From Pseudomonadota bacterium (GTDB taxonomy: Bacteria > Pseudomonadota > Alphaproteobacteria > Rhodobacterales > Rhodobacteraceae): a stretch of DNA of 64,000 nt. The notes under the pieces were generated by a model, which was given only the letters and a program-made list of their open reading frames with translations, had not been told where the DNA came from and did no database searches. Location: contig JAIUPD010000002.1 of the NCBI GenBank assembly GCA_020161615.1, positions 372,001-436,000 of the forward strand, read 5' to 3'. Both the position numbers and the translations under genes were made by a program. Numbering within the stretch: position 1 is the stretch's first letter; each line of letters begins with the position of its first letter. Below, piece after piece: positions 27,173 through 49,787 of this stretch.

Positions 27173-28213
27173 TCAGGGCAGGGCGGCGACCAGCACCCGG
27201 GCCAGATCCTCGGGCTTCACCTGTCCCAGCAGCCAGTCGCGGACCGCCTGCCGCTGTTCGGCCTCGGGCGGCAGCGGGGCGTCGCTGTCCGGGCCTTCCA
27301 GGGGCAGCGTACGGTCGAAGGCGTGCTGATTGAGGAAGGCGATGTCGTCCCGGTTGGCGCGGCGGATCCATTCCTGGATCGCCGCCGGCGGATCGGTGAG
27401 CTTGGGCAGTCCGGTCAGCCCCGGCGCGCGGCGCAACCGCTCCAGCAGGACCTGGCGGCGCTGGATCTGGGCCGCGTCGCCGCCGCTGCCCAGCCGCTCG
27501 AACCCTTCGTTCAGCCCGAGGATCCAGAGCGTCGCGGCGGCGCTGAAACTCTCGTTGGTGCTGTGCACGGGATGGAGCGGGGCGACCGGCTGGCCATGGA
27601 TCAGGCCGATCTGCTGGTAAAGATCGACAAGCAGATCGCCGCCGGCCAGACAGGCGCGGTCGAACCGGCGCAGGATCACGTTCTCGGCGCCAAGTTGCTG
27701 GCGATAGCGGCGCAGCGTATCCGCCGCGCCCAGCCTCACCTGCGCGGGCAGGGGCAGATCGGCCAGTCGCGCGCCGTCGCGGATCAGCTGGTCCAGTGCC
27801 GAGCGGTAAAGCGGCACCGGGTCGCGGACATACATCAGCACGACGATTTCGGAAAAGGTCCGGCGCAACTCGTCAAGGATGGGTCCGGGGCGCAGGTAAT
27901 AGAGCGACTCGCTGGACAGGATGGTCAGCGCGGGCCCCTGCGCGCCGATTTCGGCGGCCATCCGGTCCCATTCCCGGCGGCTGAAAGCGCGGGATTCTTC
28001 GCGCGTGGCGAAATGCAGCCGTTCCTTCGGCAGGAGGGGTTTTCGCCCGGGCTCGAACAGGTTCGACAGCACGCGGGGCGGGGGCACGGTGGCATCGCTG
28101 GGTTGCCAATAGGCGATCCCCTGCTGCGCCAGCGCCGCGCGGTTCAGGAACAGCGAGTCCTGGATGGTGGTCGATCCCGCCTTGGCGGCACCGATATGCA
28201 ACAAGAGCTTCAT
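27173..28213 (-). CDS. Sulfotransferase-family protein 1
   Basis: A 346-residue protein whose N-terminus, MKLLLHIGAAKAGSTTIQDS, has the PAPS 5'-phosphosulfate loop pattern of sulfotransferases (GxxKxGST). A second region, VLMYVRDPVPLYRSALDQL, matches the 3'-phosphate-binding RDP...S motif. It would transfer sulfate from PAPS to a carbohydrate, probably the polysaccharide made here. The start is ATG 28213; the extension to 28405 overlaps the promoter area of the divergent gene. Divergent from a second sulfotransferase and a GT2 operon. Confidence 0.82.
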   Translation of the reverse strand: MKLLLHIGAAKAGSTTIQDSLFLNRAALAQQGIAYWQPSDATVPPPRVLSNLFEPGRKPLLPKERLHFATREESRAFSRREWDRMAAEIGAQGPALTILSSESLYYLRPGPILDELRRTFSEIVVLMYVRDPVPLYRSALDQLIRDGARLADLPLPAQVRLGAADTLRRYRQQLGAENVILRRFDRACLAGGDLLVDLYQQIGLIHGQPVAPLHPVHSTNESFSAAATLWILGLNEGFERLGSGGDAAQIQRRQVLLERLRRAPGLTGLPKLTDPPAAIQEWIRRANRDDIAFLNQHAFDRTLPLEGPDSDAPLPPEAEQRQAVRDWLLGQVKPEDLARVLVAALP

Positions 28214-28394: not shown

Positions 28395-29039
28395 ATGACC
28401 GTCATTCTCAGGAAATACGGCCTTGGCTATCTGTCGGTGCCCAAGGTCGCCTGTACCTCGATCAAGGCGATGATGTTTGAGGTGGAGAACGGCTTTGCGT
28501 TCCGTCCCTTCTCGGCCAACGGTCAGATGCGTTGGATTCACAATTTCTATCCGTCTGTCCCTTTCGCGGAACTGAAGCGCGGCCGTCTGCGCGATCTGCA
28601 CCGCATCACCGTGGTGCGCGATCCGATCAAGCGGGCACTGTCGTGCCACAGCAACCGCGTCGTGCAGCACCGCGAACTTTCGCGCGAGATCGCCGGAGAG
28701 CGGTTGGCCGGCTCGGGCCTGCCCTTCGACCCCGACCTCTCGACCTTCGTGCGCAACATTGCCGAATACTCGCGCCGGGTGGCCGAGATCGGCCACCACA
28801 CGGCGCCGCTGACGGTCTTTCTGGGCGAGAATCCCGGCTATTTCCACCGCATCTACCGCTTCGAGGAATTGCCCGAGATGGTCGCCGACGTGGGCCGGAT
28901 CACCGGCAAGGAGGTGGCGCTGGAGGTCATGCAGCGGTCGAGTGGGAGTGCCAAAATCGAGCAGCTTTCGCCCGACGAGATCACCCTTCTGAAAGATTAC
29001 TATGCCGAAGATTACGCTATCTTCGGCGCCTATTTCTGA
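28395..29039 (+). CDS. Sulfotransferase family 2-like protein
   Basis: A 214-residue protein of the carbohydrate sulfotransferase type related to chondroitin and HNK-1 sulfotransferases. It has the 5'-phosphosulfate loop YLSVPKVACTSIKAMM and the 3'-phosphate motif VVRDPIKRALSCH. The start ATG at 28395 follows a GAGGAAA site. It heads an operon with a GT2 glycosyltransferase (four bases downstream) and the large multidomain gene, supporting sulfation of a surface glycan. The acceptor is unknown. Confidence 0.85.
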   Translation: MTVILRKYGLGYLSVPKVACTSIKAMMFEVENGFAFRPFSANGQMRWIHNFYPSVPFAELKRGRLRDLHRITVVRDPIKRALSCHSNRVVQHRELSREIAGERLAGSGLPFDPDLSTFVRNIAEYSRRVAEIGHHTAPLTVFLGENPGYFHRIYRFEELPEMVADVGRITGKEVALEVMQRSSGSAKIEQLSPDEITLLKDYYAEDYAIFGAYF

Positions 29040-29043
29040 GCCG

Positions 29044-30825
29044 ATGACCGGGCGGCCCGCCGATCCTGCCGCGCCCCTGATCACGGTGATCGTCGCCGTC
29101 CACCAGGTCGCACCGCAGATCGCCGAGGCCATCGCCAGCCTGCGCGCGCAATCGCTGCCGGATTTCGAGGCGCTGGTCGTCGATGACGGCTCGACCGACG
29201 GATCGGGGCGGCTCGCCGCCGAGGCTTTCGCCGGGGATGCGCGCTTTCGCCTGCTGGTGCAGCCGAACCGGGGCCTGTCGGCGGCCCGCAACGCGGGGCT
29301 CGACCAGGCGCGGGGGGAGTTTGTCGCCTTCCTCGACGGCGACGACGCGATGGCGCCCGATTTTCTGGAGGTGCTGCACCGGGCCATTCTGGAAGAAGGG
29401 ACGGAGTGGGCGGCCTCGGGCCTTGCGCTGGTCTATCCGGGCGGCGAGGAGCGGCCGCATCCGGGGCTTCACGCCTGCGACATGCCGCCCGAAGCCGGGC
29501 GTCTGCCCTTGACCGATGCCTGCGAGGTGGCGCGGATCTTCCCCTCGGCCTGGAACAAGCTCTATCGCCGGTCGCTGTTCGACGGGATCAGGTTCCCGGA
29601 GGGAAGTTGGTTCGAGGATCATGAGGTCTTCTGGGCGATGGCCCGCCGCGCCCCCCTGCTGGCCTATCGGCCCCAGGCCCTGTACCGCCATCGCCGCGAC
29701 CGGCCGGGCCAGATCACCGGCGCCGACAGCGACCGGGTTTTCGACGTGCTCAGGGTGCTGGACCGGCTGGGACCGGTAATCCTGGGCAGCGGGATGGCCC
29801 GCGCGGCCGAGGGCTATGCCCGCCTGTCCGCCCGGCTGATCCACGAACGCGCGCTGGTGATCCGCGACCCGACCCGCCGTGCGCGCTTTCTGACGGCGGC
29901 GCAGGCCTTCTTGCAGCATCGCGGGGCAGGCTGGCAGGCCGATTGGGACCCCGAGATCAGCCGCGGGCTGGGGTTGGCGCTGGCGGGGGTGCTGCCGCTC
30001 TCGGTCGTGGTGCAGGGCGATCCGGGCCCGGCGCTGGCCGCGCTCGACGCGCAGGGCATGGCGGATTTCGAGCTGGTGGTGCTGGGGGACGGGGCGCCCG
30101 GCGTCCTGCCATCGGGCCGCGCGGTGCGGCGGCTCGATCCGGCGGGCCTGACGCCTGCCCGCCTTGCCTCGGTGCTGGAGGGGCGCTGGGTCCTGCTGCT
30201 GGCCCCGGGCGAGGTGCCGCTGCCCGAGGGGCTGATGAGGCTGGTCAATCTGGGTGAGCGGCTGGACCTGCCGCTGATCATCGGCGCGTTGGAGCGGCGG
30301 GGGCGGGGCTATCACGACGGCTGGACCGACAACCGCGTCGTGCCCGGGCTCGATGCGTTGCCGGTCTGGGGCGGCGAGGTCGCGATGGGCGGCGCGCAGG
30401 CGCTGAAGCTTTATCCGGCGCTGGGCAACCGGCTGATGCGGCGCGAGTTGCTGGCGGCGCTGCCCGGGTCGCCGGGGCTGGGGCGGGAGGCGGGCTCGGC
30501 GCAGATGCTCGCGCTTCTGGGCGGGCTGCAGGCGGGCAGGGCGGGCTACACGCGGCTCGCCGTCCTTTCGGTGCCGGACCGGCCCTTGGCGATCCCCGGC
30601 ACCGGAGCCGCGCGCCGCCTGCTTTCCGCCTGTCCGGCCCTGCCCGATCTGCCGCAAGGCTGGCAGGCCGTGGTGCTGTTGCGGCTGGCGCGGCTGCGGG
30701 GAGGGGGCCTGCGGCTGGTTGGGGCGCTGGCCGGGGCGCTGCGCGAGGGCTGGCTTGCCGGGCGCAAGGCTGCGCCGGACCCGGACCTGCCGCGCTGGGT
30801 TCGCAGGCTGATGCCCCGGCGGTGA
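29044..30825 (+). CDS. GT2 glycosyltransferase with a long second domain
   Basis: The first about 230 residues are a GT-A fold family 2 glycosyltransferase: LITVIVAVHQVAPQIAEAI, LVVDDGSTDGSGRLA, NRGLSAARNAGLDQARGEFV and the metal-binding FLDGDDAM. The remaining about 350 residues have another strand-rich segment (PLSVVVQGDPGPALAALDAQ onward) that looks like a degenerate second GT-A domain without the DXD motif. The 593-residue start is ATG 29044, four bases after the sulfotransferase stop. Sugar donor and acceptor unknown; membership in the polysaccharide island suggests assembly of its repeat unit. Confidence 0.85.
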   Translation: MTGRPADPAAPLITVIVAVHQVAPQIAEAIASLRAQSLPDFEALVVDDGSTDGSGRLAAEAFAGDARFRLLVQPNRGLSAARNAGLDQARGEFVAFLDGDDAMAPDFLEVLHRAILEEGTEWAASGLALVYPGGEERPHPGLHACDMPPEAGRLPLTDACEVARIFPSAWNKLYRRSLFDGIRFPEGSWFEDHEVFWAMARRAPLLAYRPQALYRHRRDRPGQITGADSDRVFDVLRVLDRLGPVILGSGMARAAEGYARLSARLIHERALVIRDPTRRARFLTAAQAFLQHRGAGWQADWDPEISRGLGLALAGVLPLSVVVQGDPGPALAALDAQGMADFELVVLGDGAPGVLPSGRAVRRLDPAGLTPARLASVLEGRWVLLLAPGEVPLPEGLMRLVNLGERLDLPLIIGALERRGRGYHDGWTDNRVVPGLDALPVWGGEVAMGGAQALKLYPALGNRLMRRELLAALPGSPGLGREAGSAQMLALLGGLQAGRAGYTRLAVLSVPDRPLAIPGTGAARRLLSACPALPDLPQGWQAVVLLRLARLRGGGLRLVGALAGALREGWLAGRKAAPDPDLPRWVRRLMPRR

Positions 30826-30893: not shown

Positions 30894-33800
30894 ATGTTCT
30901 CGTTCAAAACCGCCGGTGGTGCCCGGTTCCGCTGCGAGGCCGATTTCGTCTGGGGCTCGGTCCTCAACGTCAACTTCCATGCGGATGACTGGCGCTCGAT
31001 CCCCTTTCACCTCTCGATTCGCCGCGACGAGGCGCTGGTCGTGGTCAACCGGCAGGATCCGAAGGGCTGGCGGCGTGAGATCCGCAGGCCGATGCGGTTT
31101 GACAGGGTGGCGGTGCCGGTCGAGGTGCTCTTTGCCGCGGGCCGCGTCCGGGTCAGTGTCAATGGCGTGGCCATCGGCAGCTTCGACGCCTATCCCCGCC
31201 TCGACCCGACCTGCCGCTACGGGCTGCGGCGCGGCTTTCCCGGTCTTGGCCGCATCGCCCATGTCGATGTGCAGGGCGATGTGGTCTGGAACAGCGTCCT
31301 CGTCGACCGCGCGCAGCACGGGGCGCCCCCGTCCGACGAGATCGCGCTCAGCGACGCGCTCGAGGTGATCCGGCGCGGCGTGGGCGACGACAGCCCGCCC
31401 CTGGGCGTCCTGCGGATCATGGGGCAGGAGGCAGAGGTCCCGGCGGCCTTGAAGGCGCTGCCCTATCTCCTGCCCGATGGGACGCATGAACACGCGATGG
31501 TCGCGGTCCTGCCCGGCTGGCTCTGGTCGGGGGGTGTTCAGGCGCTGGACATGGTGCTGGAGGATGCCGCCGGCCGGGGGCTGGGGGGGCTCAGGCTGGA
31601 GCGCCCGGCACTGGTCGAGCGGATCGAGCGGCTGGCGTTGTCGGGCGGGCTGGAGGGCGACGACCGGGTCGCGATCCAGGCCATCGAGCATGCAAGGCAC
31701 GCGGGCCTCGCCGCCGATCTGACGCCTGAGGCCTATCACCGGCTGGCCCATGCCGCGGCGCGCTTCCGTCTGGCAGATTTCCTGGCCGAAGGGGGCGAGG
31801 CGCCCCGCGCCGTTTCATCCCCCGACCTGCCGCCCGCGCCGCTGCCCCGCCGTGCCGAGGAAGCCTCGGACCGTTTTACCGCCGCCCTGCGCGCCGATCC
31901 CGGGTCGGATCCCCTGGCCCTGCTGGCGGCCGAGCTGGCGGCGCTGGACAAGCCCCACGACCAGGGCGAGTTGGTCGAGCGGCTGATCGAATGCTTCGCC
32001 CTGGCGGACAGGCTGGAGGATCTGTTCCGCCTGCGCCGCGACCGGGCCCTTCCGGCGCTCAACCCTCCGGGGGCGGGGGACCTCTATCGGCGCGGGCTGC
32101 TCTTGAGCCTGGATTATGCCGAGGGGCGGTTCGGGGCCATCGCCGCGACGCTCTGGGATCTGGCGCCCGAGGGGCCGGCCTGGCTGCCGACACCCGCGCT
32201 GGGCTGGGTTCTGGAACAGGCGGCACGGGCGGCGCCCGGGCTGGACGGGACAGCCCCCCTCGACTGGCAGCGGACCGACATGCTGAAGGCGGGGCTGGAC
32301 ATGGTGGCGGCGCGGGCACAGGGCTATTGGGGGCGCAGCCCCTGCCGACGGCTGATCCGCGCCGTGCTGGTGATCCTGCTGAACGCCGATTCCCTGCCCG
32401 AGGATGTCCGCCAGAAGGCGATCTGGACCGCGCTCAGGGCCTATGGGCTGACGCCCGGTTTCTGGGATCTGGTCGAGGCGGAGATCGCCCGCGGCTGGAC
32501 CCCACCGCGCCAGATTGTGCCGGTGCGGGCAGCCTTTGCCCGGATCCGCGCCGCGTTTGATGCCGGGACGCGCGACGAGGCGGCGTTGTCGCGGGATCTG
32601 GATCTGTTCCGGCAACTTGGTTGCCCCGACCTGCAACGCTTCCGGCGCGAGCTGTTCGGGCCGCTGGGCCTGCCCGGGGCCGAGGCGGCGCGGCCGCTGG
32701 CGCCGCTGGTCGCGGGTTTCGACCCCGACGAGGCGCTGCTGCGCCATCTCAGTTTCCCGGGCAACGCCGACAGGCTCGACGCCGCCGGGCTGGAGGGGGT
32801 GGCCGAGGTGATCGCCGACAGCTTCTCCGGGATGCCGCGCAATCCCTTCGCCCGGCTGCAGGGGCGGATGCTGGCCGAGGCGACGGCGCTGCTGGAGGCA
32901 CCGGACGAGGCGACGATGGCGCGGTTCCTGAGAGGGGCGGCTGCGATGATGTCGGGCTACAGCCGCTTCATGGGGATCGCCCTGCCGCTGGCGCTGCTGC
33001 GCGGTCTCTGCGACCGGGGGCGGGCGGCGGAGGGCGCACCGCTGGTGGCGCAGATCGCGGCCGCGCTGCCCGATCTGGCAAAGGACCCCGCCACCGCCGC
33101 CGCGCTCTTCACCGCCCCTGCGCCGCGGCTGGCGCTCGATGCGCTGACCCGCGCGCATGGCACCCTGCCGGCGGTGGCGGCGCTGGCCCTGGCGCTGGAG
33201 CCGCTGCTGGCCCCCGGCCCGCCCCCCCCGCGTGAGGACCGCGCGGCGGACCTCAGCGCCCGGGCGCATCCGTTGCAGGACACGCTCCTCTGCCTCTACA
33301 CCTGCCAGCCCTATCTGGAGACCCGGGTCCGGGCGATCCGCGAGACCTGGCTGCCGCTGCTGGCGAAGATGGGCGTGCCCTGCCTGATCTTCGTCGGCGG
33401 CGGGGACGGGCGGCGCGAGGGGGATGTCATCTATCTCGACGCGCCCGACGATTACGAATCCCTGCCGAAAAAGACCCTGGCGATGGCGCGCTGGGTGCTG
33501 GACCACACCGATTTCGCCCATCTGGTAAAGGTGGATGACGATTGCTTCGTCGACCCGGAATCCTGGTTCGGCGATCTGGCCCATCGGTCGACGAATTATT
33601 ACGGCCGCAGCCTGACCCGGCGGCGCGGGCAGATGGACCGGACCTGGCACCAGCCCAAATCCCGCAGCCGCCGCGCCCGGATGGAGCTGGACAAATCGCC
33701 CGAGCCCTCGACCTATGCCGATGGCGGATCGGGCTACGCCCTGTCGCGCATCGCGCTTCAGACGCTGATCGAGGCCAGCGAGCGGCCCGAGGGCCGGGCG

Positions 33801-35033
33801 CTGATCCATGTGTCCTTCATGGAGGACAAGCTGGTCGGCGACCTGTTGGCCAGTGCCCGGATCGCGGTGGACAACACCGATTACCGCGTGGCGCTGCTGC
33901 GCCGGACCCGACCGGGCGGCCCGCTGGTGTCGCTCTGGGACAACGGGTTCCTGCCGTTCAAGGGGTCGGGCATGAAACTGGCCCATCTGGATGGGCCCGA
34001 GAAGATGGCCGAGGTGCTGGCGGGCCTGTCGCAGCCGCGGCCGGTGCAGGCCAAGATCTGGCCCAGCTATCAGCCGGTGCGGCAGGGCTGGGCCTCGAAC
34101 ACGCTGGACCTGATCTCGCCCCCGGAGAAGCTAGCGGAGGTCAACGAGGCGCCCGTGGCGGTGGTATCCTGCCTGAGGAACGAGCGCTTCATGCTGCCCC
34201 GCTTTCTGGAGCATTACCGCGCGCTGGGGGTTCGGGGATTCCTGATGGTCGACAACGGTTCGGACGACGGCAGTTTCGACTATCTGGCCGCACAGCCCGA
34301 TGTGGCGCTCTTCTCGGTCGATACGCCCTATTCGGAATCGCAATACGGGGTGGCCTGGCAGCAGGCGCTGTTGGCCAATCTCAGGCCGAACCGCTGGTCG
34401 CTGGTCGCCGATCTGGACGAATTACTGGTGCTGGCCGCGGATCTGAGCGGGGATCTGCCCGCGCTTGTGGAAACGCCCGCGTTCCGGGGCGCCGATGCCG
34501 CGCGGCTTTTCATGCTGGACATGTATCCCGAAGGACCGCTTTCGGGCGCGGATTTCCGGGCCGAGGGCCCCTTCGCGCAAGCCGGTTTCGTCGACCGAGA
34601 GCCCTTTCTGGCCGTGACGGGTGCACGCGGACCCTATTCCGATGCGCCGGTCTGGACCAGCGCGCTCAGGCACCGGCTGATCCCCGGCGCGCGGTCGGAC
34701 CTTTTCGTGGCGCAGAAGATCGCGCTTCTGAAATACCGGCCCTGGATGCGGCTCTCGGCCGGGCTGCATTTCGTGGCGGATGCGCGGCTGGCCCCGCGCG
34801 ACCTGATCTTCGCCCATTTCAAGTACAGCGCCGCCTTTCATGCCAAGGCCAGGGCCGAGGTCGCCCGCCGCCAGCATTTCAACAATGCCGAGGAATACCG
34901 CAAATATCTGGCCGTGGTCAGCGAGGGGCGGGACGTGATCCACGATCCGGCAATCTCGGTCCCCTGGGACCAGGCGCCTTTCGTCCGCCGGCTTCTGGGG
35001 CTGGAGGCGGGCCGCGCTCAGTCCCGGGCATAG
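30894..35033 (+). CDS. Multidomain galectin-like / GT31 / GT2 glycosyltransferase
   Basis: A 1379-residue protein with four parts. Residues 1-145 resemble a galectin: H39-x-x-x-R43, N52, W59, E62 and R64 match the carbohydrate-binding pattern of galectins, with identical N-W-E-R spacing but a shorter loop after R43 and Ser at the position of one Asn. About 150-790 is helical, TPR-like, unassigned. About 793-1080 is a GT31 (beta-1,3-galactosyltransferase/Fringe) domain: RAIRETW (~812), VKVDDDCFVD (D881-D883), ADGGSGYALSR and E977-D978. About 1086-1379 is a GT2-type domain (VVSCLRNER, DNGSDDGS, D1173-L-D1175-E). It overlaps the convergent GT4 gene by 16 bases. Confidence 0.88.
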   Translation: MFSFKTAGGARFRCEADFVWGSVLNVNFHADDWRSIPFHLSIRRDEALVVVNRQDPKGWRREIRRPMRFDRVAVPVEVLFAAGRVRVSVNGVAIGSFDAYPRLDPTCRYGLRRGFPGLGRIAHVDVQGDVVWNSVLVDRAQHGAPPSDEIALSDALEVIRRGVGDDSPPLGVLRIMGQEAEVPAALKALPYLLPDGTHEHAMVAVLPGWLWSGGVQALDMVLEDAAGRGLGGLRLERPALVERIERLALSGGLEGDDRVAIQAIEHARHAGLAADLTPEAYHRLAHAAARFRLADFLAEGGEAPRAVSSPDLPPAPLPRRAEEASDRFTAALRADPGSDPLALLAAELAALDKPHDQGELVERLIECFALADRLEDLFRLRRDRALPALNPPGAGDLYRRGLLLSLDYAEGRFGAIAATLWDLAPEGPAWLPTPALGWVLEQAARAAPGLDGTAPLDWQRTDMLKAGLDMVAARAQGYWGRSPCRRLIRAVLVILLNADSLPEDVRQKAIWTALRAYGLTPGFWDLVEAEIARGWTPPRQIVPVRAAFARIRAAFDAGTRDEAALSRDLDLFRQLGCPDLQRFRRELFGPLGLPGAEAARPLAPLVAGFDPDEALLRHLSFPGNADRLDAAGLEGVAEVIADSFSGMPRNPFARLQGRMLAEATALLEAPDEATMARFLRGAAAMMSGYSRFMGIALPLALLRGLCDRGRAAEGAPLVAQIAAALPDLAKDPATAAALFTAPAPRLALDALTRAHGTLPAVAALALALEPLLAPGPPPPREDRAADLSARAHPLQDTLLCLYTCQPYLETRVRAIRETWLPLLAKMGVPCLIFVGGGDGRREGDVIYLDAPDDYESLPKKTLAMARWVLDHTDFAHLVKVDDDCFVDPESWFGDLAHRSTNYYGRSLTRRRGQMDRTWHQPKSRSRRARMELDKSPEPSTYADGGSGYALSRIALQTLIEASERPEGRALIHVSFMEDKLVGDLLASARIAVDNTDYRVALLRRTRPGGPLVSLWDNGFLPFKGSGMKLAHLDGPEKMAEVLAGLSQPRPVQAKIWPSYQPVRQGWASNTLDLISPPEKLAEVNEAPVAVVSCLRNERFMLPRFLEHYRALGVRGFLMVDNGSDDGSFDYLAAQPDVALFSVDTPYSESQYGVAWQQALLANLRPNRWSLVADLDELLVLAADLSGDLPALVETPAFRGADAARLFMLDMYPEGPLSGADFRAEGPFAQAGFVDREPFLAVTGARGPYSDAPVWTSALRHRLIPGARSDLFVAQKIALLKYRPWMRLSAGLHFVADARLAPRDLIFAHFKYSAAFHAKARAEVARRQHFNNAEEYRKYLAVVSEGRDVIHDPAISVPWDQAPFVRRLLGLEAGRAQSRA

Positions 35034-36043
35034 ACCTCAAGCAGGGCGTCGAGATGCTCGTCCATGCTGGTGGGGGGCTGGGCGCGGGTCCAGTAATCGG
35101 CGGGCTGCACCGCGCCCTCCAGCATCCGGTACAGTACGCGGTGCAGATCCTGCGCGTCGCCTGCGCGGAAGACGAAGGCCGGCGCGCGACCCAGTTCCTG
35201 CGCGCCGCCGCGATCCGAGGTGATCAGCGGGATATGGCGGGCGTGCATCTCCAGTGCGACCTGGGGCAGGTTGTCCTCCCATTGCACGGGGACGATGCCC
35301 AGGGCGACATCGGCCAGCAGCGCGGTCAGGTCGTCATGCGTGTAGCCGTCGACATGCCGCACCTCGGCCAGATGCGGGCGCAGCGCGTTGAGCCCGGCCA
35401 TCGCCCCGGCATCGCCCGACCGGGCGGCGACGGTCAGGCGCAGGCGGCGGGCCTGGACCAGCGGCAGGGCCTGCAGCGCCTGCATCAGGAAATGGAACCC
35501 CTTGTCGCGTCGCATATAGCCCAGATAGGCCAGATGCAGCGTGCCGTCCGGGGCCAGGAACCCGGGACGCGGCAGCGTCTTTTGCCACTCGGCGGCCTCG
35601 GCGGTGCCGATGTAGAGGGTTTGCAGCCGCTCGGCATGGATTCCGTGCAGCAGCGCGATCTGCCGTACCCGGTCCGAGACGCAGAGTACCCGGTCGCAAT
35701 GGGCGTTGATCAGCCCGACCATCCGCGCCCGGCGCCGGGCGAAAGGGTCGCCCGCGTGCCCGTGAGGGCGGAGGCCGATGGCGGGGGGCGGGGCGGGCAC
35801 ATCGTCGCCGCGCCGCCGCCGCAACAGCCTGCGGGCCAGCCGCCAGGCACGGCTCATGCCGGGGCGGAAGAGCCGGTCGTAGAAGGCGGTCCCGGGGCCG
35901 AGGCCGCGTTGCGACAGGCTCCAGGCAAAGGCATAGGCTAGCCGCACCGGGCCCGGCTGCGGCGGGGCGGGCAGGCAGCGGGCGCATTTCGCCCCGGCGT
36001 GGAAATCGTCGCAGGTCTCGCGCTCGGCGAACCAGAGATTCAC
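35018..36043 (-). CDS. GT4 glycosyltransferase, C-terminal part of a frameshifted gene
   Basis: The frame of 341 codons opens with GTG AAT CTC TGG and begins VNLWFAERETCDDFHAG, which is internal to GT4 enzymes, where it normally follows HNYYPFCPQ. It carries the C-terminal Rossmann domain with LAYLGYMRRDKGFHFLMQAL (donor-binding start) and the EX7E-like region VALEMHARHIPLITSDRGG. Alone it lacks the acceptor-binding half encoded at 36040-36489, so it is probably inactive unless the frame is restored. It should be read with that half as one gene of about 490 residues. Confidence 0.8.
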   Translation of the reverse strand: MNLWFAERETCDDFHAGAKCARCLPAPPQPGPVRLAYAFAWSLSQRGLGPGTAFYDRLFRPGMSRAWRLARRLLRRRRGDDVPAPPPAIGLRPHGHAGDPFARRRARMVGLINAHCDRVLCVSDRVRQIALLHGIHAERLQTLYIGTAEAAEWQKTLPRPGFLAPDGTLHLAYLGYMRRDKGFHFLMQALQALPLVQARRLRLTVAARSGDAGAMAGLNALRPHLAEVRHVDGYTHDDLTALLADVALGIVPVQWEDNLPQVALEMHARHIPLITSDRGGAQELGRAPAFVFRAGDAQDLHRVLYRMLEGAVQPADYWTRAQPPTSMDEHLDALLEVYARD

Positions 36044-36489
36044 CTGGGGCAGAACGGATAGTAATTGTGCAGGGACAGCACGAAGCGGGTCCGCGGCCAG
36101 CGTGGGCGCAGGGCGAGGATATTGGCGGGCAGCCCCTCAAGATTGTTTAAATGGATCACGTCCCAGGGACCGGTCCGGTCGATGAAATCGGCGAAGGCCC
36201 GTTCGGTGGCGGCATGGTCGAGCTGCGCGGCCCCGGCGAAATCGGCGTGCGAGGGGGCGACAAGCCCCGAATTGACCAGTGCGTAGCGGGGGCTGGGGCC
36301 GTCCGCCAGCGTCACCACACGGGGCGTCCGGCGCCACAGATCATGGGCGATACCGGAGGAAAGGAAGGCGGTCTCGACCCCCGCACGGCCAGCGAGCGCG
36401 GCGATCAGGTTGCGCTGATAGACGCTGACGCCGCCGCCCCGCCCCTCGGGATCGCGGTAATCGACCCAGTTGACGTAGAGGATTCTCAC
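36040..36489 (-). CDS. GT4 glycosyltransferase, N-terminal part of a frameshifted gene
   Basis: A 149-residue fragment: MRILYVNWVDYRDPEGRGGG and VSVYQRNLIAAL are the start of a GT4 N-terminal Rossmann domain, DVIHLNNLEGLP the middle, and it stops abruptly after LSLHNYYPFCPR. The next frame continues exactly with VNLWF. One extra C in the run at 36046-36049 (G on the plus strand) would restore HNYYPFCPQVNLW. The GTG start at 36489 overlaps the stop of the upstream sulfotransferase-like gene (GTGA). Confidence 0.82.
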   Translation of the reverse strand: MRILYVNWVDYRDPEGRGGGVSVYQRNLIAALAGRAGVETAFLSSGIAHDLWRRTPRVVTLADGPSPRYALVNSGLVAPSHADFAGAAQLDHAATERAFADFIDRTGPWDVIHLNNLEGLPANILALRPRWPRTRFVLSLHNYYPFCPR

Positions 36490-37568
36490 GCCTCGGGATC
36501 CCGCGGGTCTTTCGGCGTGGCCTCACGGCGCGCCGCCTCCTCCAGCACCCCGATCCGGCCCGAGAGCGAGACGACATGCGCCCTGAGCCGCCCGATCTCG
36601 CCCGCCATGAGGGCGATGAGGGCATCGAGGTCCTGCGCTGGACCCTCGGGCAAGTCGGGCAGGGCGGCGAGCATCGTCTCGGCGTCCAGCGCTGCGCCGG
36701 GCAGGGCGGCGACCGCCTCGATCCCCCGCCGCGCCTCGTCGCGGATCGTGGCCAGCGCGCGGCCCGGCCCGTCGCCATCGTCGCTGTCCAGGCTGGCCTG
36801 GGCATGGGCGTTCATCAGCTCGCGCACATGGCGGGGCAGGTCCACACGGTTGAGGCCCCGGTGATAGGCCAGCCGCCGCGGGTCGATCCGCCGGTTGGGA
36901 TCGCCGGGCATCGGCTCGGCCAGCGGCGGAACCGGAAAACCGAGCGCGCCGAGGAAATCGGCATAAAGCGCATCGCCCTCGCGCAGCGAGGGGTCGTAGG
37001 GGCGCAGGATCACCGCCCCGGCGCCGAAAATCTCCAGCCAGGGTGTCAGCGCCAGCGCGTAATCCCAGTGGATCGGCTCCATCTGGGTAGAGAGGGCGGT
37101 GGCGAAACTGCCGACCGGGATTCCCATCTTGACCAGTTGATTGTACCAGCTTTGCAGATGCGCCTGCGGCGGCCGGAGATAGGCGATCACCCGAAACCGC
37201 AGGTCGGGCGCCTGGTTGATCTGCTGGCGCAGCAGGGTCGCCGCCGCAGGATGGGCGCCGAGGCGGATGAATTCCTCGCTGCTGACCAGAAGGGAATGGC
37301 CATCGGGCAGCGCCCGGGCCTCGTCGAACAGCGCCTGCCAGATCCTGCCCGGCGGGCGGGGACTGGCATAGCCATGCATCAGCTCGCTCACCCCCGCCCG
37401 GCGCAGAAGCGAGAAGGCCAGCGCGGAATGCTTGGCGTGCTTGCGCGTCTCGGCGGCGTAATGCAGCCCCACCTCGGCCAGCAGGTCGCGGTTATAGTCG
37501 AGGTAGCTCTGCAAGGCCGTGGTGCCGGTCTTGAAATGCCCGATATGCAGGATCAGTTCACGCGCCAT
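36486..37568 (-). CDS. Sulfotransferase-like protein 3
   Basis: A 360-residue protein starting MARELILHIGHFKTGTTALQ, the sulfotransferase 5'-phosphosulfate loop, with FRVIAYLRPPQAHLQSWYNQ at the place of the 3'-phosphate motif (RPP instead of RDP). The C-terminal 40 residues form a predicted coiled coil (LIALMAGEIGRLRAHVVSLS). It follows kpsT by 34 bases and overlaps the GT4 gene, so it belongs to the kpsE-kpsT-ST-GT4 operon. Activity as a polysaccharide sulfotransferase is inferred. Confidence 0.8.
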   Translation of the reverse strand: MARELILHIGHFKTGTTALQSYLDYNRDLLAEVGLHYAAETRKHAKHSALAFSLLRRAGVSELMHGYASPRPPGRIWQALFDEARALPDGHSLLVSSEEFIRLGAHPAAATLLRQQINQAPDLRFRVIAYLRPPQAHLQSWYNQLVKMGIPVGSFATALSTQMEPIHWDYALALTPWLEIFGAGAVILRPYDPSLREGDALYADFLGALGFPVPPLAEPMPGDPNRRIDPRRLAYHRGLNRVDLPRHVRELMNAHAQASLDSDDGDGPGRALATIRDEARRGIEAVAALPGAALDAETMLAALPDLPEGPAQDLDALIALMAGEIGRLRAHVVSLSGRIGVLEEAARREATPKDPRDPEA

Positions 37569-37602: not shown

Positions 37603-38256
37603 TCAGCGCATGTTCCATTGGTGACGGCTCACGGCTTCGTCCAGATCGGCAAAGAACGTGAGCTGTCCCTCATGCAGGACGATCGCCGCGTCGCAATATT
37701 CGCGCAACTCGTTGAGGTTGTGGTTCACCAAAATGGCGCTCGAATTCAGGATCCGCTCGCGGAACACAGCCGCGCTTTTGCGGCGGAAACGGGCATCGCC
37801 GACGGCCGTCACCTCGTCCACCAGATAGGTGTCGAAGGGAATGCCCATCGAGATGCCGAAGGTCAGGCGCGAGCGCATGCCCGAGGAATAGGTGCGGATC
37901 GGCATGTGGAAATGCTTGCCGATCTCGGCGAAATCCTGGACGAAATCCATCAACTCGTCGGTATCGGCGCCATAGACCCGGGCCAGGAAGCGGGTGTTCT
38001 GCGCCCCGGTCAGATCGCGGTGGAACGAGCCCGCGAATCCCACCGGCCAGGAGATCGAGCCATCGGACCAGACCCGCCCCGTATCGGGCGGCAGCGTGCC
38101 CGCGATCAGTTGCAGAAGCGTCGTTTTTCCCGCCCCGTTGCCGCCCAGCAGCGCCAGCGAGCGCCCGGTCGGCAGGGTCAGGTTCAGCCGCTGGATCACC
38201 GGGAAATACTCGTTGTGCAGCCAGAACCCCTTGGACAGGTCGTCGAACTGGATCAC
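37603..38256 (-). CDS. kpsT: Capsule polysaccharide ABC transporter ATP-binding protein (KpsT-like)
   Basis: ATPase subunit of an ABC-2 type polysaccharide exporter. Walker A is G38-GNGAGK44-T45, the ABC signature Y123-SSGM127, Walker B YLVDE (D147, E148) and the H-loop region LVNHNLNEL. At 217 residues it matches KpsT/CtrD/BexA, which lack the C-terminal carbohydrate-binding domain of Wzt proteins. The start is GTG at 38256, with GGGGGTGA upstream, three bases after the kpsE stop. Partner permease kpsM is at 39624 on the other strand. Confidence 0.92.
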   Translation of the reverse strand: MIQFDDLSKGFWLHNEYFPVIQRLNLTLPTGRSLALLGGNGAGKTTLLQLIAGTLPPDTGRVWSDGSISWPVGFAGSFHRDLTGAQNTRFLARVYGADTDELMDFVQDFAEIGKHFHMPIRTYSSGMRSRLTFGISMGIPFDTYLVDEVTAVGDARFRRKSAAVFRERILNSSAILVNHNLNELREYCDAAIVLHEGQLTFFADLDEAVSRHQWNMR

Positions 38257-38259
38257 GGG

Positions 38260-39555
38260 TCACCCCCGGTCCCTGAGGCTGTAATAGATCAGCGCCAGGG
38301 CCGACCAGGCCAGCGTCAGGAACAGCAGCGTCAGCAGCACGAATTGCAGCCGCCGGGGGTATTCCGCCTGCTCGGCCAGCGTCGGGCGCACATAGGTCGC
38401 CAGATACAAGCTCTTGCGCTGCGCGTTCGAGCGCGCGGCATCGAGGGCGGCCAGCGCTGCGGTATAGGTCCGCTCGGCGAATTCCTGATTGACCATCAGG
38501 CTTTCGAACTGGGCGATGAGGCGGGGATAATCCGTGTCGAAGACGGTGACGTCCTGCGTGGCGAAATTGCGCCGCTCCTCGCCGATACGGTCGCGGATCA
38601 CCTCGATCCGGCGTTCGGCCTGGCGCACGCGGGGGTCGCTGTCGGCGGTGGTCTGCAACAAGAGGTCGTAATCCACCAGCGCCTGCGCCAGCTGTTGCTG
38701 AAGGCCGTTGATGACGCCCATGCGCCCCTCGATATCGGCCTGGGGATCGACGATCTGGGTGCGGGCGCGGAAGCTCGCCAGATCCTCGCGCGCGCTGCGC
38801 AGCCGGGCCAGCGCCTCCTCGAGGTCGCGCTCGGCATTGGCCATGCTGTCGCGCCGGGCCTGTTCGTTCAAGGCGTTGATCATCGCCTCGCTTTCGGCCA
38901 CGACGATCCGGGCGATGCGGCGGGCTGTCTCGGCGTCGCCGGCGCGGACCTGCACATCCATCAGGCCCGAATTCTTGTCGTACGAGACGGTGACAACCCG
39001 GTTCCAGAACCAGACCAGATCCTCGATCGTGGCGCTGGGCCAGATCGAGAAGACCGGATCGGTTTCCCAATGGGTCGAATAATGCCCCCGAAAGTCGATC
39101 TCGGCCTGCACGCGCTCGACCAGCTGCTGGCTGTGGATGAAGGCGAACAGCACATCCGTGTTCGACGAGGCACCGCCGCCGACGAAGGCGCTGAGCCCGC
39201 CCATCAGATCCGAGGCCGAGGCCGATTCCTCGCTGCGCACGGTGAACCCGGTGGTCGAGGCGTACTGGTCCCGGGCCAGCAGGTAGAGGTACAGGGTCGC
39301 CAGCGCCGTCGGCACCAGCACCAGCAGCACGAAGGACAAGAACAGCCCGTGGTGGCGGCGCCGCAAGCGGGCGGGGGCGACCAGCGGGCGGACCTCGGCC
39401 GGGGGGGCGGCTGCCAGCTCGGCCTCGGGGACGGGGTGGGGCGGCCGGACGGCGCTTGCCTGCGGCTTCGCCTCGCTCTCGGCCGCCGCGGCCTGGGCCT
39501 TGCGTCGTGCTTCCTGGCGTTGCCGAGGCCTGAGGTTGTCCACCCGGAACTCCAA
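38260..39555 (-). CDS. kpsE: Capsule export inner-membrane protein (KpsE-like)
   Basis: Polysaccharide co-polymerase/export family protein of 431 residues. A charged Ala/Pro-rich N-terminal stretch (about 1-65) precedes a membrane helix (about 70-92), a large periplasmic region with a long coiled coil (about 220-330) and a C-terminal membrane helix (about 405-425), the topology of KpsE/CtrB/BexC. It links the inner-membrane ABC transporter to the outer-membrane channel. First gene of the minus-strand operon, 68 bases from the divergent kpsM. Confidence 0.9.
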   Translation of the reverse strand: MEFRVDNLRPRQRQEARRKAQAAAAESEAKPQASAVRPPHPVPEAELAAAPPAEVRPLVAPARLRRRHHGLFLSFVLLVLVPTALATLYLYLLARDQYASTTGFTVRSEESASASDLMGGLSAFVGGGASSNTDVLFAFIHSQQLVERVQAEIDFRGHYSTHWETDPVFSIWPSATIEDLVWFWNRVVTVSYDKNSGLMDVQVRAGDAETARRIARIVVAESEAMINALNEQARRDSMANAERDLEEALARLRSAREDLASFRARTQIVDPQADIEGRMGVINGLQQQLAQALVDYDLLLQTTADSDPRVRQAERRIEVIRDRIGEERRNFATQDVTVFDTDYPRLIAQFESLMVNQEFAERTYTAALAALDAARSNAQRKSLYLATYVRPTLAEQAEYPRRLQFVLLTLLFLTLAWSALALIYYSLRDRG

Positions 39556-39623: not shown

Positions 39624-40466
39624 GTGGCCTCGGACGGGACCTTCATTGTCGGGGGCAACCGCAACGGCGGACCGCGGGCGCTGCCCCCGGCGCGGCTGAA
39701 CCGCCGTTACCGCGCCCTGCGGACAATCGCCGCCCTGATCCTGCGCGAGGTGTCGACACGCTTTGGCCGCACGCCCGGCGGCTTCGCCTGGGCGGTGCTG
39801 CAACCCCTGGCCACGATCATCGTGCTGGGCCTGGCCTTTTCGCTCATCGCCCGCACGCCCGCGCTGGGTACGAGCTTTCTTCTGTTCAAGGCGACCGGGC
39901 TTCTGGCCTATCAAACCTTTCAGTCCAATTCGATGATGGTCGGCAAGAGCCTGGCCTTCTCGGCCCCGTTGCTGACCTATCCCGGCGTCACCTGGGCCGA
40001 TGCGATCCTGGCGCGGGTGATCCTCAACACGCTGGTGTCGGTGGTGGTGGCGGTGCTGATCCTCGCCGGGATCATCGTGGCGCTGGACCTGTCCCTGATC
40101 CTCAACTGGGGCGATATCGTGCTGGCGATGGCGCTGGCGGCGCTGCTGGGCCTGGGGATCGGCACGCTGAACTGCTACCTGTTCGAGCGGATCGCCATCT
40201 GGGCGAACCTCTGGGGCATCCTGAATGCGCCTTTGATGATCATGTCGGGGGTGATCATCCTTTACGACGACCTGCCACGCCGGGCGCAGGAATGGCTGTG
40301 GTACAATCCCGCCCTGCACGTCACCGGGCTGATGCGGGCGGGGTTCTATTCGACCTATCAGCCCACCTATGTCTCGGTCGCTTATGTCCTGGCCTGGGCG
40401 CTGATCCCCCTGGTGCTGGGCCTCTTGCTGCTCAGGCGCTATCACCGCGACCTGCTCACTCGTTGA
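39624..40466 (+). CDS. kpsM: Capsule polysaccharide ABC transporter permease (KpsM-like)
   Basis: ABC-2 type permease of 280 residues with six membrane helices and the family segments REVSTRFGRTPGGFAWAVLQP near the N-terminus and WLWYNPALHVTGLMRAGFYS near the C-terminus. With KpsT and KpsE it exports a lipid-linked polysaccharide. The GTG at 39624 is used with AGGAGAGG just upstream; no ATG fits. Its 3' end overlaps the convergent GT2 gene by 11 bases. Unusually, it is divergent from kpsE and kpsT. Confidence 0.9.
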   Translation: MASDGTFIVGGNRNGGPRALPPARLNRRYRALRTIAALILREVSTRFGRTPGGFAWAVLQPLATIIVLGLAFSLIARTPALGTSFLLFKATGLLAYQTFQSNSMMVGKSLAFSAPLLTYPGVTWADAILARVILNTLVSVVVAVLILAGIIVALDLSLILNWGDIVLAMALAALLGLGIGTLNCYLFERIAIWANLWGILNAPLMIMSGVIILYDDLPRRAQEWLWYNPALHVTGLMRAGFYSTYQPTYVSVAYVLAWALIPLVLGLLLLRRYHRDLLTR

Positions 40467-41442
40467 GCGCGTCGGCCCGGGTCAGAACCTCGGCATGGGG
40501 GCGGCCGGTCCGTCCGCGCAACCCGTCCCGCAGCGCCAGGCCGAAGAGTGCCAGGAACCGCCGCCGCTCGCCCCCGTGATAGCGCAGCCGGTAGAGCCAG
40601 CGCGGAATATAGAGGCAGAGCACCGGATAGAAGAAGATCCCGGTGGCGATCCGGTAGAGGATCAGCATGTTGCGATGGTAGTAATAGACCTTCCACAGCG
40701 GGCGCAGCCGGGGATCGGCGGGCGAATAGGTGGTGCAGGCATGCACGAAATGCACCTCGGGCGCGAAACCCAGCCGATACCCCGCCCGCGTCAACCCCAT
40801 CGTGTAGATCGCGTCATCGCCATAGAGAAAAAGGGCCGGATCGGGATAACCCGCCTCGGCCACCACCCGGGCGCGGACGAAGAAGCCCACGAACGAGGCG
40901 CCATCGACCGGCCTGAGCCCCGGCAGGGCGAAATCCTTTTCGCCCAGATGAAAGGCGCCGCGGCCGCCGCCCAGCAGTGTGCGCAGCAGAATCCCCTTGT
41001 GCCAGAAAGGGTTGAAGGTCGGGCGGTTCATGTCGGCCAGCGTGCCGTCGGGGCAGCGGACAGCGGCGGCGATCCCGTCATAGCCCTTCAGGTCGAGGCG
41101 CTGGAAGATGTCCAGCGCGCCGGGTTCGGGGCGGGAATCGTCGTCCATGATCAGCAGCCAGTCGGGCGACAGCGCCGCCATCGCCTGCCGCATCCCGGCC
41201 TCGAACCCGCCGGCGCCGCCCAGGTTCCGCGGCAGCGTCAGGACATGGAGCCGGGGCTCGCGCTGCGCCGCCAGCCACGCGCCTGTCCCGTCGTCCGAGG
41301 CATTGTCGACGACCAGCACTGCCGCCAGATCCCGCGCGGGCGCGGCCAGCAGCGCCGCAAGCGTCTGGCGCAGATCGGCGAGACGACGATGGGTTGCAAC
41401 GACAGCCACCAGCCGCCCGTTCTCGCCTGTTTCGTCCTGCAT
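40456..41442 (-). CDS. GT2 glycosyltransferase, galactofuranosyltransferase-like
   Basis: A 328-residue GT-A enzyme: VAVVATHRRLADLRQTLAAL, VVDNASDDGTGAWL, LPRNLGGAGGFEAGM and the metal site LLIMDDDSRP. The NLGGAGGF stretch and DDDSRP combination is characteristic of GlfT1/GlfT2-like and rhamnosyl transferases. The catalytic-base region is LFLYGDDAIYTMGL. Since glf (UDP-galactopyranose mutase) lies 2.8 kb away, transfer of galactofuranose is a reasonable proposal but not proven by sequence. C-terminal hydrophobic stretches may dock on the membrane. Confidence 0.85.
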   Translation of the reverse strand: MQDETGENGRLVAVVATHRRLADLRQTLAALLAAPARDLAAVLVVDNASDDGTGAWLAAQREPRLHVLTLPRNLGGAGGFEAGMRQAMAALSPDWLLIMDDDSRPEPGALDIFQRLDLKGYDGIAAAVRCPDGTLADMNRPTFNPFWHKGILLRTLLGGGRGAFHLGEKDFALPGLRPVDGASFVGFFVRARVVAEAGYPDPALFLYGDDAIYTMGLTRAGYRLGFAPEVHFVHACTTYSPADPRLRPLWKVYYYHRNMLILYRIATGIFFYPVLCLYIPRWLYRLRYHGGERRRFLALFGLALRDGLRGRTGRPHAEVLTRADALNE

Positions 41443-41640: not shown

Positions 41641-44271
41641 ATGCGACTCCAGTTGCAGGGTGTGGTCAAGACAGGGGTGGCGCTGCTCGACTCCGGCATC
41701 ACCGATCTTGAGATCGGTGTCGTCAACGGTGTCGTGCATCTCTACGCCTCGACCGGGCGCAATGGCGGGATCGCGGAGTATGTCGTCGGCGCCAACGGAC
41801 AGGTCAGCCTGCAGACCAGCGTGATCTTCCCGGCCAGCATCACCAGCGGCGTCAGCGACCGGCTGGTGGTCGCCGAAACCGGCTCGGGCGGGATGCTGAT
41901 GATCGGCGACAGGGCCAGCGGGCTGGTGGCCTATACGCTGCGCCCGGATGGCGGGATCGGCAGCCAGACCACGATCGACTGGCAAGCGGTGGACAATGCC
42001 ATCGCCCAGGGCTCGGACGCGCATCTGAGCGCGCGCGTCATCCTGAGCGATGGATCGCTCGCCCTGTTCCCGGCGGGCACCGATACCAGCCAGGTGATCG
42101 ACCTGCGCTGCGCCACGGTCAACGGCCGCGATTTCGTCATCACCGCCGATCAGGCCGGCAACAGCGTCACCGCGTATCGCGCCGATGGGTCGGGCGGCAG
42201 GCTCAGCGCCACGGGCAGCATGGGGGCCGAGCAGGGGCTGGGCATCGACGCGCCGACGGCGATGGAGGTGGTGACGCTGGACGGCAGGACCTATGTGGTG
42301 CTCGCCTCGGCCAACACCAGTTCGCTTTCGGTGATGGAACTGACCGCCGACGGCCAGCTGCTGCCGACCGATCACCTGGTCGATACCGGCAACACCCGCT
42401 TCGAGGGGGTGCAGGCCATGGATGTGATCCAGGCAGGCGGCCATACCTTCGTCGTCGCGGGCGGGGCCGACAACGGGATCACCGTCTTCGAACTGCTGCC
42501 CGGCGGCACGATGGTGGCCATTGCCACGCTGGCCGACGACAGCGCCACCTCCATGCACCGGGTCACGGCGATCACCCTGGCGGTCGACGGAGACACGCTG
42601 CATGTCTTCGTCGGCTCGCAGAACGAAAGTGGCATCACCGAATACCGGCTGAACCTGACCACGCTGGGCGAGACGATGCAGGGCACGGCCACGGCCGAGC
42701 GTCTGGCGGGCACCGGACGCGACGATGTGCTGATGGCCTCGGGTGCGAATGACACGCTGGTGGGGGGCGGGGGCGACGACATCCTGGTGACCGGCGGCAC
42801 CGGCACCGTGATGAGCGGCGGCATCGGCGCCGATGTCTTCGTGGTGCGCGCGGGCAGCGGCGGCGCGGTCATCACCGATTTCGACCGCGGCCTCGACCGG
42901 CTGGACCTCAGCGACCTGCCGATGCTGCGCGATGTCTCGCAGTTGAATTTCACCGCCACCTCGACCGGCTGCGTCATCGAATACCGTGGTCACACCATGG
43001 TCATCACCTCGTCCAACGGCCAACCCCTGCGCCAGGCCGATGTCTTTCCCAACGGTTTCGACTGGGCCGACCGCTACGCCTATATCCCGCCCGAGACCGA
43101 GACGCCGGTCAGCGCCGGCGTCAGCCGTGAGGGGGGCGCCGCCGGCGACCGGCTGCTGGGCACCGCACGCGACGACACGCTGCGCGGCGGGCTGGGCAAG
43201 GACACGCTGGAAGGGGGCGACGGGAACGACCTGCTGGATGGGGGCGAGGGGCGCGATCTGATCAGTGCCACCTCGGGCAACAACACGCTGCTGGGCGGTT
43301 ATGGTCAGGACACGATCAACGGCGGGTCCGGCGCCGACTGGATCGAGGGCGGGGGCGGCAAGGACATCCTCTATGGCGATGCCGGCAACGACACGATCCA
43401 TGGCGGCGACGGGCGCGACATCATCCGCTCGGGCGGGGGCAACGATCTGGTGTATGCCGGGTCCGGCGGCGGCTCGATCTTCCTGGCAAGCGGCGATGAC
43501 ACGGCCTATGGCGGCGACGGGCGCGACGTGATCCAGGGCCAGGCCGGGGCCGATCTGATCTATGGCGGCGAGGGGAACGACAACATCCGCGGCGGCAGCG
43601 AGAATGACACCCTGCAGGGCGAGGGCGGCAATGACATGCTGGACGGCGGCGGCGGCGAGGATCTGCTGAACGGCGGCCTCGGCAACGACACGCTGCGCGG
43701 CGCGGCGGGCAACGACATCCTGCTGGGCGACGAGGGCGCGGACCGGCTGGAAGGGGGGGCGGGCAACGATGTGCTGGACGGCGGCGCCGGGGACGACCAG
43801 CTTTACGGCGGCGAGGGGCATGACAGCCTGATCGGCGGCTCGGGCAATGACGCGCTTCAAGGCGAGGATGGCAATGACACGCTGACCGGTGCCTGGGGCG
43901 ACGACTGGCTGTCCGGCGGGGCTGGCAACGACGTGCTGAACGGCGGGGCGGGCAGCGACACGCTGCGCGGCGGCTCGGGGCATGATCTGCTCTGGGGCGG
44001 GGGCGGCGCCGATGTGTTCGAGTTCTTTCGCGATCACGACAGGGGCGAGGTGATGGATTTCAACCCCGACGAGGGCGATCTGATCCGCCTGGACGACTGG
44101 ATCTGGTTCAGCCTGGGCGACCTGACCGCGGAAGAGGTCGTGGACCGCTTCGGCTCGCTGGACGAGGCCGGGAATGTGGTGCTCGATTTCTCGGATGTGG
44201 GCGGCAATGTCGTGGTGTTGAACGGCTTCAACGACCTCGACGCTTTGCCCGCGCATATCGAGATCATGTGA
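41641..44271 (+). CDS. RTX-type calcium-binding protein with propeller-like N-terminus
   Basis: An 876-residue acidic protein. Residues about 1-340 contain repeated strand segments of the kind seen in beta-propellers (VVAETGSGGMLMIGDRA, VVLASANTSSLSVMEL, FVVAGGADNGITVFEL). RTX nonapeptides GGxGxDxLx appear at about 355-410 and again, in long arrays, at about 495-790. The end (DFNPDEGDLIRLDDW to the final HIEIM) is typical of type I secreted RTX proteins, which lack an N-terminal signal. ATG 41641 follows AAAGGTG. Probably a Ca-folded surface or secreted protein; the secretion genes are not in the window. Confidence 0.87.
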   Translation: MRLQLQGVVKTGVALLDSGITDLEIGVVNGVVHLYASTGRNGGIAEYVVGANGQVSLQTSVIFPASITSGVSDRLVVAETGSGGMLMIGDRASGLVAYTLRPDGGIGSQTTIDWQAVDNAIAQGSDAHLSARVILSDGSLALFPAGTDTSQVIDLRCATVNGRDFVITADQAGNSVTAYRADGSGGRLSATGSMGAEQGLGIDAPTAMEVVTLDGRTYVVLASANTSSLSVMELTADGQLLPTDHLVDTGNTRFEGVQAMDVIQAGGHTFVVAGGADNGITVFELLPGGTMVAIATLADDSATSMHRVTAITLAVDGDTLHVFVGSQNESGITEYRLNLTTLGETMQGTATAERLAGTGRDDVLMASGANDTLVGGGGDDILVTGGTGTVMSGGIGADVFVVRAGSGGAVITDFDRGLDRLDLSDLPMLRDVSQLNFTATSTGCVIEYRGHTMVITSSNGQPLRQADVFPNGFDWADRYAYIPPETETPVSAGVSREGGAAGDRLLGTARDDTLRGGLGKDTLEGGDGNDLLDGGEGRDLISATSGNNTLLGGYGQDTINGGSGADWIEGGGGKDILYGDAGNDTIHGGDGRDIIRSGGGNDLVYAGSGGGSIFLASGDDTAYGGDGRDVIQGQAGADLIYGGEGNDNIRGGSENDTLQGEGGNDMLDGGGGEDLLNGGLGNDTLRGAAGNDILLGDEGADRLEGGAGNDVLDGGAGDDQLYGGEGHDSLIGGSGNDALQGEDGNDTLTGAWGDDWLSGGAGNDVLNGGAGSDTLRGGSGHDLLWGGGGADVFEFFRDHDRGEVMDFNPDEGDLIRLDDWIWFSLGDLTAEEVVDRFGSLDEAGNVVLDFSDVGGNVVVLNGFNDLDALPAHIEIM

Positions 44272-49630: not shown

Positions 49631-49787
49631 GTGCATTTCCCTATACTTCCAGGCCGGAGACAGTGCTATGCTCAAATTGCAGGAAAATCGAGCGACAATT
49701 CCGCACCCGAGGCAACGATTTGTTAGCCTGGATCAAAGATCCTCCACGGGCGCAAGGGAGAGTCGGAGAGGCAGAAAGGGTGCAATC

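Follow-up and report, generated by a model that had tools for sequence, protein, structure and literature searches.

A galectin domain, a GT31 glycosyltransferase domain and a further GT-A transferase domain are found together in one bacterial protein, encoded by an open reading frame (ORF) at positions 30894-35033 (+) of a 64,000-nucleotide stretch of contig JAIUPD010000002.1 from a member of the Rhodobacteraceae. The whole stretch is called the window here, and positions refer to it unless a relative is named. The product has 1379 residues, in which three Pfam families score above their curated cut-offs: Gal-bind_lectin, Galactosyl_T (GT31) and Glyco_tranf_2_4. No NCBIfam model matched it at E 0.001. 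An earlier sequence-only reading had proposed this combination and had named an N-terminal part without a jelly roll, or galectin and GT31 profile scores far below threshold, as grounds for giving it up; a jelly roll was predicted, both scores are over threshold, and the Pfam scores and predicted folds agree on all three domains. The protein is a member of a conserved family, most loci of which are syntenic. With a confidence somewhat better than even, it is taken to be a capsule glycosyltransferase that works in the cytosol with several sites, its galectin gripping beta-galactosides on the chain as this grows.

The galectin domain

The galectin domain occupies residues 1-142 (30894-31319, +) and is identified by both profile and predicted fold. 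PF00337 scores 22.8 bits in the whole protein and 29.4 bits for residues 1-150, with a cut-off of 22.1. The predicted structure shows the galectin jelly roll, and a profile search of the PDB gave a match too. A search of a phage collection returned no match to residues 1-150 at E 0.1.

Much of the sugar site is preserved among the relatives, whose identity to the window protein is 19-89%. In the first part of the site, H39-x-S41-x-R43 (31008-31022, +), the histidine and the serine are present in 27 of 28 sequences and the arginine in 25. The second part, N52, W59, E62 and R64, lies at 31047-31085 (+). Here the asparagine and tryptophan are invariant (28/28) and the glutamate is found in 26. 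The sequence-only reading had also counted the arginine of the E-x-R pattern; N52, W59 and E62 stood up in the alignment and R64, with 8 of 28, did not. The H, R, N, W and E of the site are thus kept in 25-28 sequences, a serine replaces an asparagine, and despite the divergence of the family the conserved columns of the galectin part are mainly sugar-contact positions. In classic galectins the contacts include N46 and a loop with a second histidine. The solved galectin of Toxascaris has an equal H-x-S-x-R spacing in the alignment. By its conserved residues the domain is predicted to bind beta-galactosides.

Transferase domains and overall architecture

AlphaFold2 models were built on alignments of the window protein and its relatives. 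Residues 1-335 were modelled with a mean predicted local distance difference test score (pLDDT) of 82.5 and a predicted template modelling score (pTM) of 0.58, and residues 300-1379 with values of 85.8 and 0.85. The pLDDT falls below 50 in two short stretches within the GT31 domain. The domain order in the models is galectin (1-142), a beta-rich part (~148-236), helices (~237-771), GT31 (~790-1060) and a GT2-type domain (~1070-1369).

The GT31 domain (33261-34073, +) is supported by profile and fold: PF01762 reaches 47.8 bits against a cut-off of 23, and Fringe reaches 12.8. The structure model and alignment show the GT31 fold and its acidic motifs. D881-D883 of the V-D-D-D motif (33534-33542, +) and E977-D978 of the M-E-D-K motif (33822-33827, +) are invariant in 20 of 20 rows. 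Galactosyltransferases are among the nearest solved relatives, and inverting beta-1,3 transfer would be expected as a trait of the family. The C-terminal domain (34101-35000, +) has a GT92-like fold and matches PF13704 (Glyco_tranf_2_4) with 82.5 bits, the cut-off being 27.5. Its metal-site motif, D1173-x-D1175-E1176 (34410-34421, +), is unchanged in all 19 rows, and its structure matches the plant galactan synthase GalS1.

About 620 residues separate the galectin from GT31. The sequence-only reading had described about 640 helical residues here; the long spacer is confirmed, and its composition is corrected to roughly 90 beta-rich residues followed by 535 helical ones. The beta-rich part (31335-31601, +) is recognised by strands in the AlphaFold2 model, and a profile search gave no solved relative below E 0.9. 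The all-helical part (31602-33206, +) is solenoid-like in the models. Members of the family have no Pfam family in common here, and among solved chains its profile came closest to a designed helical repeat, at E 0.1. Matches of the helical part to PPR, armadillo and importin proteins were weak and were not used.

No hydrophobic membrane segment was detected in the 1379 residues, as no 19-residue window reached a Kyte-Doolittle value of at least 1.6 (the controls KpsM and KpsE had 69 and 18 such windows). The protein should therefore act in the cytosol.

The upstream GT2 protein

The galectin protein is part of a larger set together with the product of the gene before it. This gene (29044-30825, +) ends 68 bases before the galectin ORF and encodes a GT2 domain (PF00535, 106 bits) followed by a second half in which hhalign recognises a degenerate GT2-fold copy (probability 98.8). 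A fused or adjoining GT2 protein was found in 24 of 30 relatives: in 15 it is fused into the galectin ORF, giving frames of ~1800-2070 codons, and in 9 it is a separate upstream ORF. It was not found in the other 6, one of which ends at a contig end. The fused state requires two changes on the 30-row tree versus a mean of 10.3 for shuffled labels. The galectin sits where the GT2 half meets the GT31 half. Three transferase domains of the set are active-looking: the upstream GT2, GT31 and Glyco_tranf_2_4.

Distribution of the family

Genome samples were drawn subsets, surveyed with a loose first look. Equal ORF lengths show that some of the genomes are surely of the same species as named loci; surveys such as those of the order and the family overlap, and their counts are not additive. 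In the order, 12 of 292 genomes contain the Pfam galectin family, always in a frame of 1364-2085 codons; in the class it was detected in 1 of 289, which is the window's own. A bacterial galectin profile found 12 of 295 genomes in the family and 1 of 299 in the phylum, again the window's own; the same single genome was the only one of 299 in the phylum to contain Pfam GT31. With the GT31 profile, 19 of the 292 genomes sampled from the order gave a hit, and in 16 the hit was strong. In all 16 the galectin part is present in the same protein (12 in the Pfam survey and 4 on closer look). The three weak genomes (L061, L062 and L063) encode proteins of 651-733 codons in the reverse order, with a Glyco_tranf_2_4-like domain first and a GT31-like domain last, and gave no galectin hit.

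Departures from the common layout also occur. The G192 plasmid, a 63,231-base contig, bears a galectin-containing copy and also a second GT31 plus Glyco_tranf_2_4 protein (L059, 2017-5631, -) in which no galectin was found. L064 (206-2356, -) is a frame of 717 codons that begins like a galectin (hhalign 95, not listed by Pfam), ends like GT31 and has no Glyco_tranf_2_4 match. L065 (2002-4113, -) is a 704-codon frame in which a galectin-like N-terminal part (hhalign 89, below the Pfam cut-off) precedes GT2, possibly a different galectin-transferase fusion. Galectins may be a general add-on to glycosyltransferases in Rhodobacteraceae, as L064 and L065 suggest.

The Methylobacterium copy, L017 (9263-13420, galectin present), has a guanine-cytosine (GC) content of 0.570 versus 0.692 in its surroundings, its stretch contains no other window genes, and by GC it looks recently acquired. 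Recent transfer into the window's own genome was considered and left no sign (gene GC 0.706, flanks 0.683-0.700). Outside Rhodobacterales, the Sulfurisoma protein L022 (7981-14760) adjoins genes for APS kinase, a methyltransferase and a Sulfotransfer_2 protein, neighbours hinting at a sulfated glycan.

The capsule locus

By its predicted genes, the surrounding locus is an ATP-binding cassette (ABC) exporter-dependent capsule locus of the KpsMTE type. Relatives of KpsM, KpsT and KpsE are all present, with scores below the NCBI equivalog or subfamily cut-offs, so that the names given are approximate. The KpsT-like ATPase (37603-38256, -) has 217 amino acids and a profile match below the curated cut-off; a KpsE/BexC/CtrB-like export protein follows (38260-39555, -; TIGR01010, E 5e-68, below the curated cut-off), and then a KpsM-like permease (39624-40466, +; ABC2_membrane, with the KpsM model at 80.6 bits, below the curated cut-off). 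Two frames for KpsC/KpsS-type proteins (PF05159) were found on contig C1, outside the window. The locus further contains a second GT2 glycosyltransferase (40456-41442, -; PF00535), UDP-galactopyranose mutase (Glf; 44281-45447, -; PF03275, 244 bits) and KdsB- and KdsA-like genes (45507-47145, -; CTP_transf_3 and DAHP_synth_1) for the synthesis of CMP-3-deoxy-D-manno-octulosonic acid (CMP-Kdo). Their counterparts annotated in L040 are kdsA, matched at 77%, and a Kdo cytidylyltransferase, matched at 58%.

One sulfotransferase gene and two candidates flank the central genes. A Sulfotransfer_2 gene (28395-29039, +; PF03567, 59.2 bits) lies beside the upstream GT2 gene, and before it a sulfotransferase-like protein (27173-28213, -) is suggested by a motif, with no Pfam match at E 1. 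A probable sulfotransferase (36486-37568, -) matches Sulfotransfer_4 at E 0.032, below the cut-off, and its L039 counterpart is annotated as a sulfotransferase family protein. The convergent GT4-type glycosyltransferase (35018-36489, -) matches Glyco_trans_1_4 and Glyco_trans_4_4 in pieces, its frame being broken near 36040. It is one open frame in the two relatives checked (L004 and L005), and the break in the window is either real or an assembly error. An RTX repeat protein (41662-44271, +) has 14 HemolysinCabind stretches. Downstream of the locus lies a carbonic anhydrase gene (48977-49636, -), and the gene adjoining it resembles a SulP transporter by eye.

The window genes were compared by TBLASTN with 25 loci, several of which end at contig or flank edges. 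The GT4 gene was found in 20, a KpsT relative in 17, sulfotransferase relatives in 13, Glf in 12 and RTX counterparts in 11. Five plasmid stretches carry annotations. All five have an annotated sulfotransferase, three have a RepA gene and rfbCBDA, and genes for UDP-galactofuranose, dTDP-rhamnose and GDP-fucose are present among them. The enzyme points to a surface polysaccharide of Rhodobacteraceae that would carry beta-galactosides, would probably be sulfated and would in part be encoded on RepA plasmids. Such a polysaccharide could influence how the cells attach to surfaces and how they meet animals and algae that bear galectins.

Function and alternative explanations

In KpsMTE systems, ABC-exported capsules are built in the cytosol on a lipid that bears a Kdo linker. 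The favoured reading is a cytosolic capsule enzyme of this setting. The upstream GT2, GT31, Glyco_tranf_2_4 and the galectin would be brought together on the helical scaffold, and the three transferases would add the sugars of one repeat, at least one of them as a beta-galactoside. The presence of Glf points to galactofuranose and hence to UDP-galactose. A galactose-containing chain would be built in the cytosol, probably on a Kdo-bearing lipid, and by gripping beta-galactoside units in this chain as it grows the galectin would keep the acceptor close to the active sites. This grip could raise processivity or fix the order of additions. The chain would be built before export by the KpsMTE-type transporter, and sulfotransferases would then modify it. 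The more specific proposal, a lectin-clamped polymerase in which gripping its own nascent beta-galactoside chain makes elongation processive and sets chain length, is held more tentatively and at less than even confidence. If true, the bacterial galectin would be a functional one, and its role could serve as a model of why plant GT31 enzymes carry galectins as well.

Several observations weigh against gripping of beta-galactosides by a galactose-adding enzyme. R64 is a galectin contact arginine and is mostly lost, and L057 lacks both the histidine and the serine of the sugar site. Glucuronyl-, GlcNAc- and other transferases belong to GT31 too, and the collagen glycosyltransferase LH3 also ranks high in Foldseek, so the donor need not be UDP-galactose. 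For the C-terminal domain, GalS1 shares its rank with other GT-A folds, ThuS among them, and does not stand clearly above them. Glf was not found in 13 of the 25 stretches, and those of L010, L015, L017, L020 and L022 show no Kps gene of the window. L022 and L059 carry GT31 and Glyco_tranf_2_4 without a galectin hit, and the catalytic part can therefore do without the galectin.

The galectin might instead sense a primer or a finished galactose-bearing end, setting chain length or handing the chain to the exporter, with no holding during elongation. Carbohydrate-binding modules are known to serve the termination or export of ABC-exported polysaccharides, as in WbdD and the C-terminal domain of Wzt, and this counts for end sensing. 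So do the position of the galectin between the two halves of the set and the short KpsT, which has no room for such a module. The results would fit end sensing as well as chain holding, and we regard the former as unlikely. Slightly less probable is a reuse of the fold as a structural or protein-docking module that binds no sugar. The residue at the classic N46 is a serine here, the second-histidine loop is shorter and R64 is variable, all of which would suit such a module, as would L057. Against it, conservation is centred on the sugar site, and the Toxascaris galectin shares the H-x-S-x-R spacing.

A sulfated glycosaminoglycan-like polymerase, in which GT31 adds a uronic acid, an amino sugar or another non-galactose sugar and the galectin sees a rarer unit, appears improbable. 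It draws on the top Foldseek match of the C-terminal part, human CHSY3-CHPF (8e-8), and on the adjacent Sulfotransfer_2 gene. The CHSY3-CHPF alignments are, however, not rigid (root-mean-square deviation ~24), Galactosyl_T far outscores Fringe, the CHGN domain family of Pfam gave no match at E 1 or better in the 1379 residues, and no UDP-glucose dehydrogenase is annotated in the five plasmid stretches, where no profile search for it was made. That the domain calls arose by chance or contamination is hardly credible. The whole-protein galectin score is barely above the cut-off, yet a chance motif is ruled out by profile, fold and conservation, and eukaryotic DNA because the layout returns, with its genes in the same order, across many genomes and plasmids.

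Comparison with known systems

The galectin fold is best known from animals, and galectins have been studied as animal and fungal lectins. The Toxascaris leonina galectin shares only ~16% identity with the bacterial domain over superposed residues and, unlike it, is not set within a large cytosolic enzyme. A literature search found no paper combining galectin, glycosyltransferase and Rhodobacteraceae, and no report of a bacterial galectin-GT31 protein was seen among the papers listed by further searches, a weak negative since few subscription papers were covered.

The closest parallel is in plants. Arabidopsis GALT1-GALT6 have Galectin (PF00337) and GT31 (PF01762) in one protein and are predicted type II Golgi proteins (PMC4687291). 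The order of galectin then GT31 in one chain, for which the sequence-only reading had invoked the plant architecture, is shared. The likeness ends there: the bacterial protein is not a type II membrane protein and has no membrane segment, and it differs in its long spacer, its extra transferase, its capsule locus and its often fused GT2. Human GT31 enzymes are also said to have an N-terminal galectin domain (PMC9321575).

Human CHSY3-CHPF resembles the bacterial protein in that a single chain carries a GT31-type domain and, after it, a second GT-A domain. The second domain is, in contrast, of another family, and human chondroitin synthase is not known to have a galectin. In layout the bacterial protein resembles both plant galectin-GT31 enzymes and human chondroitin synthase and belongs to neither. 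It shares with the E. coli K4 chondroitin polymerase (K4CP) the presence of two GT-A sites in a capsule enzyme, and K4CP is among the structure matches of the main protein and the matches of the upstream GT2. Two-domain capsule synthases of the K4CP type are not known to have a galectin or GT31. Unlike in GalS1, which is a GT92 enzyme, a Pfam GT92 match was seen only in the relative L009 (16.5 versus a cut-off of 23).

PMC4687291 still leaves it to future work to say what the galectin does in the plant GT31 enzymes, and a capsule enzyme from bacteria that combines both domains offers a soluble system for asking what the galectin does for the transferase. Both domain families, and transferases with lectin modules, were already known. 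What surprises is that a galectin is conserved in an enzyme of bacterial capsule loci and that, as in plants, its partner is GT31.

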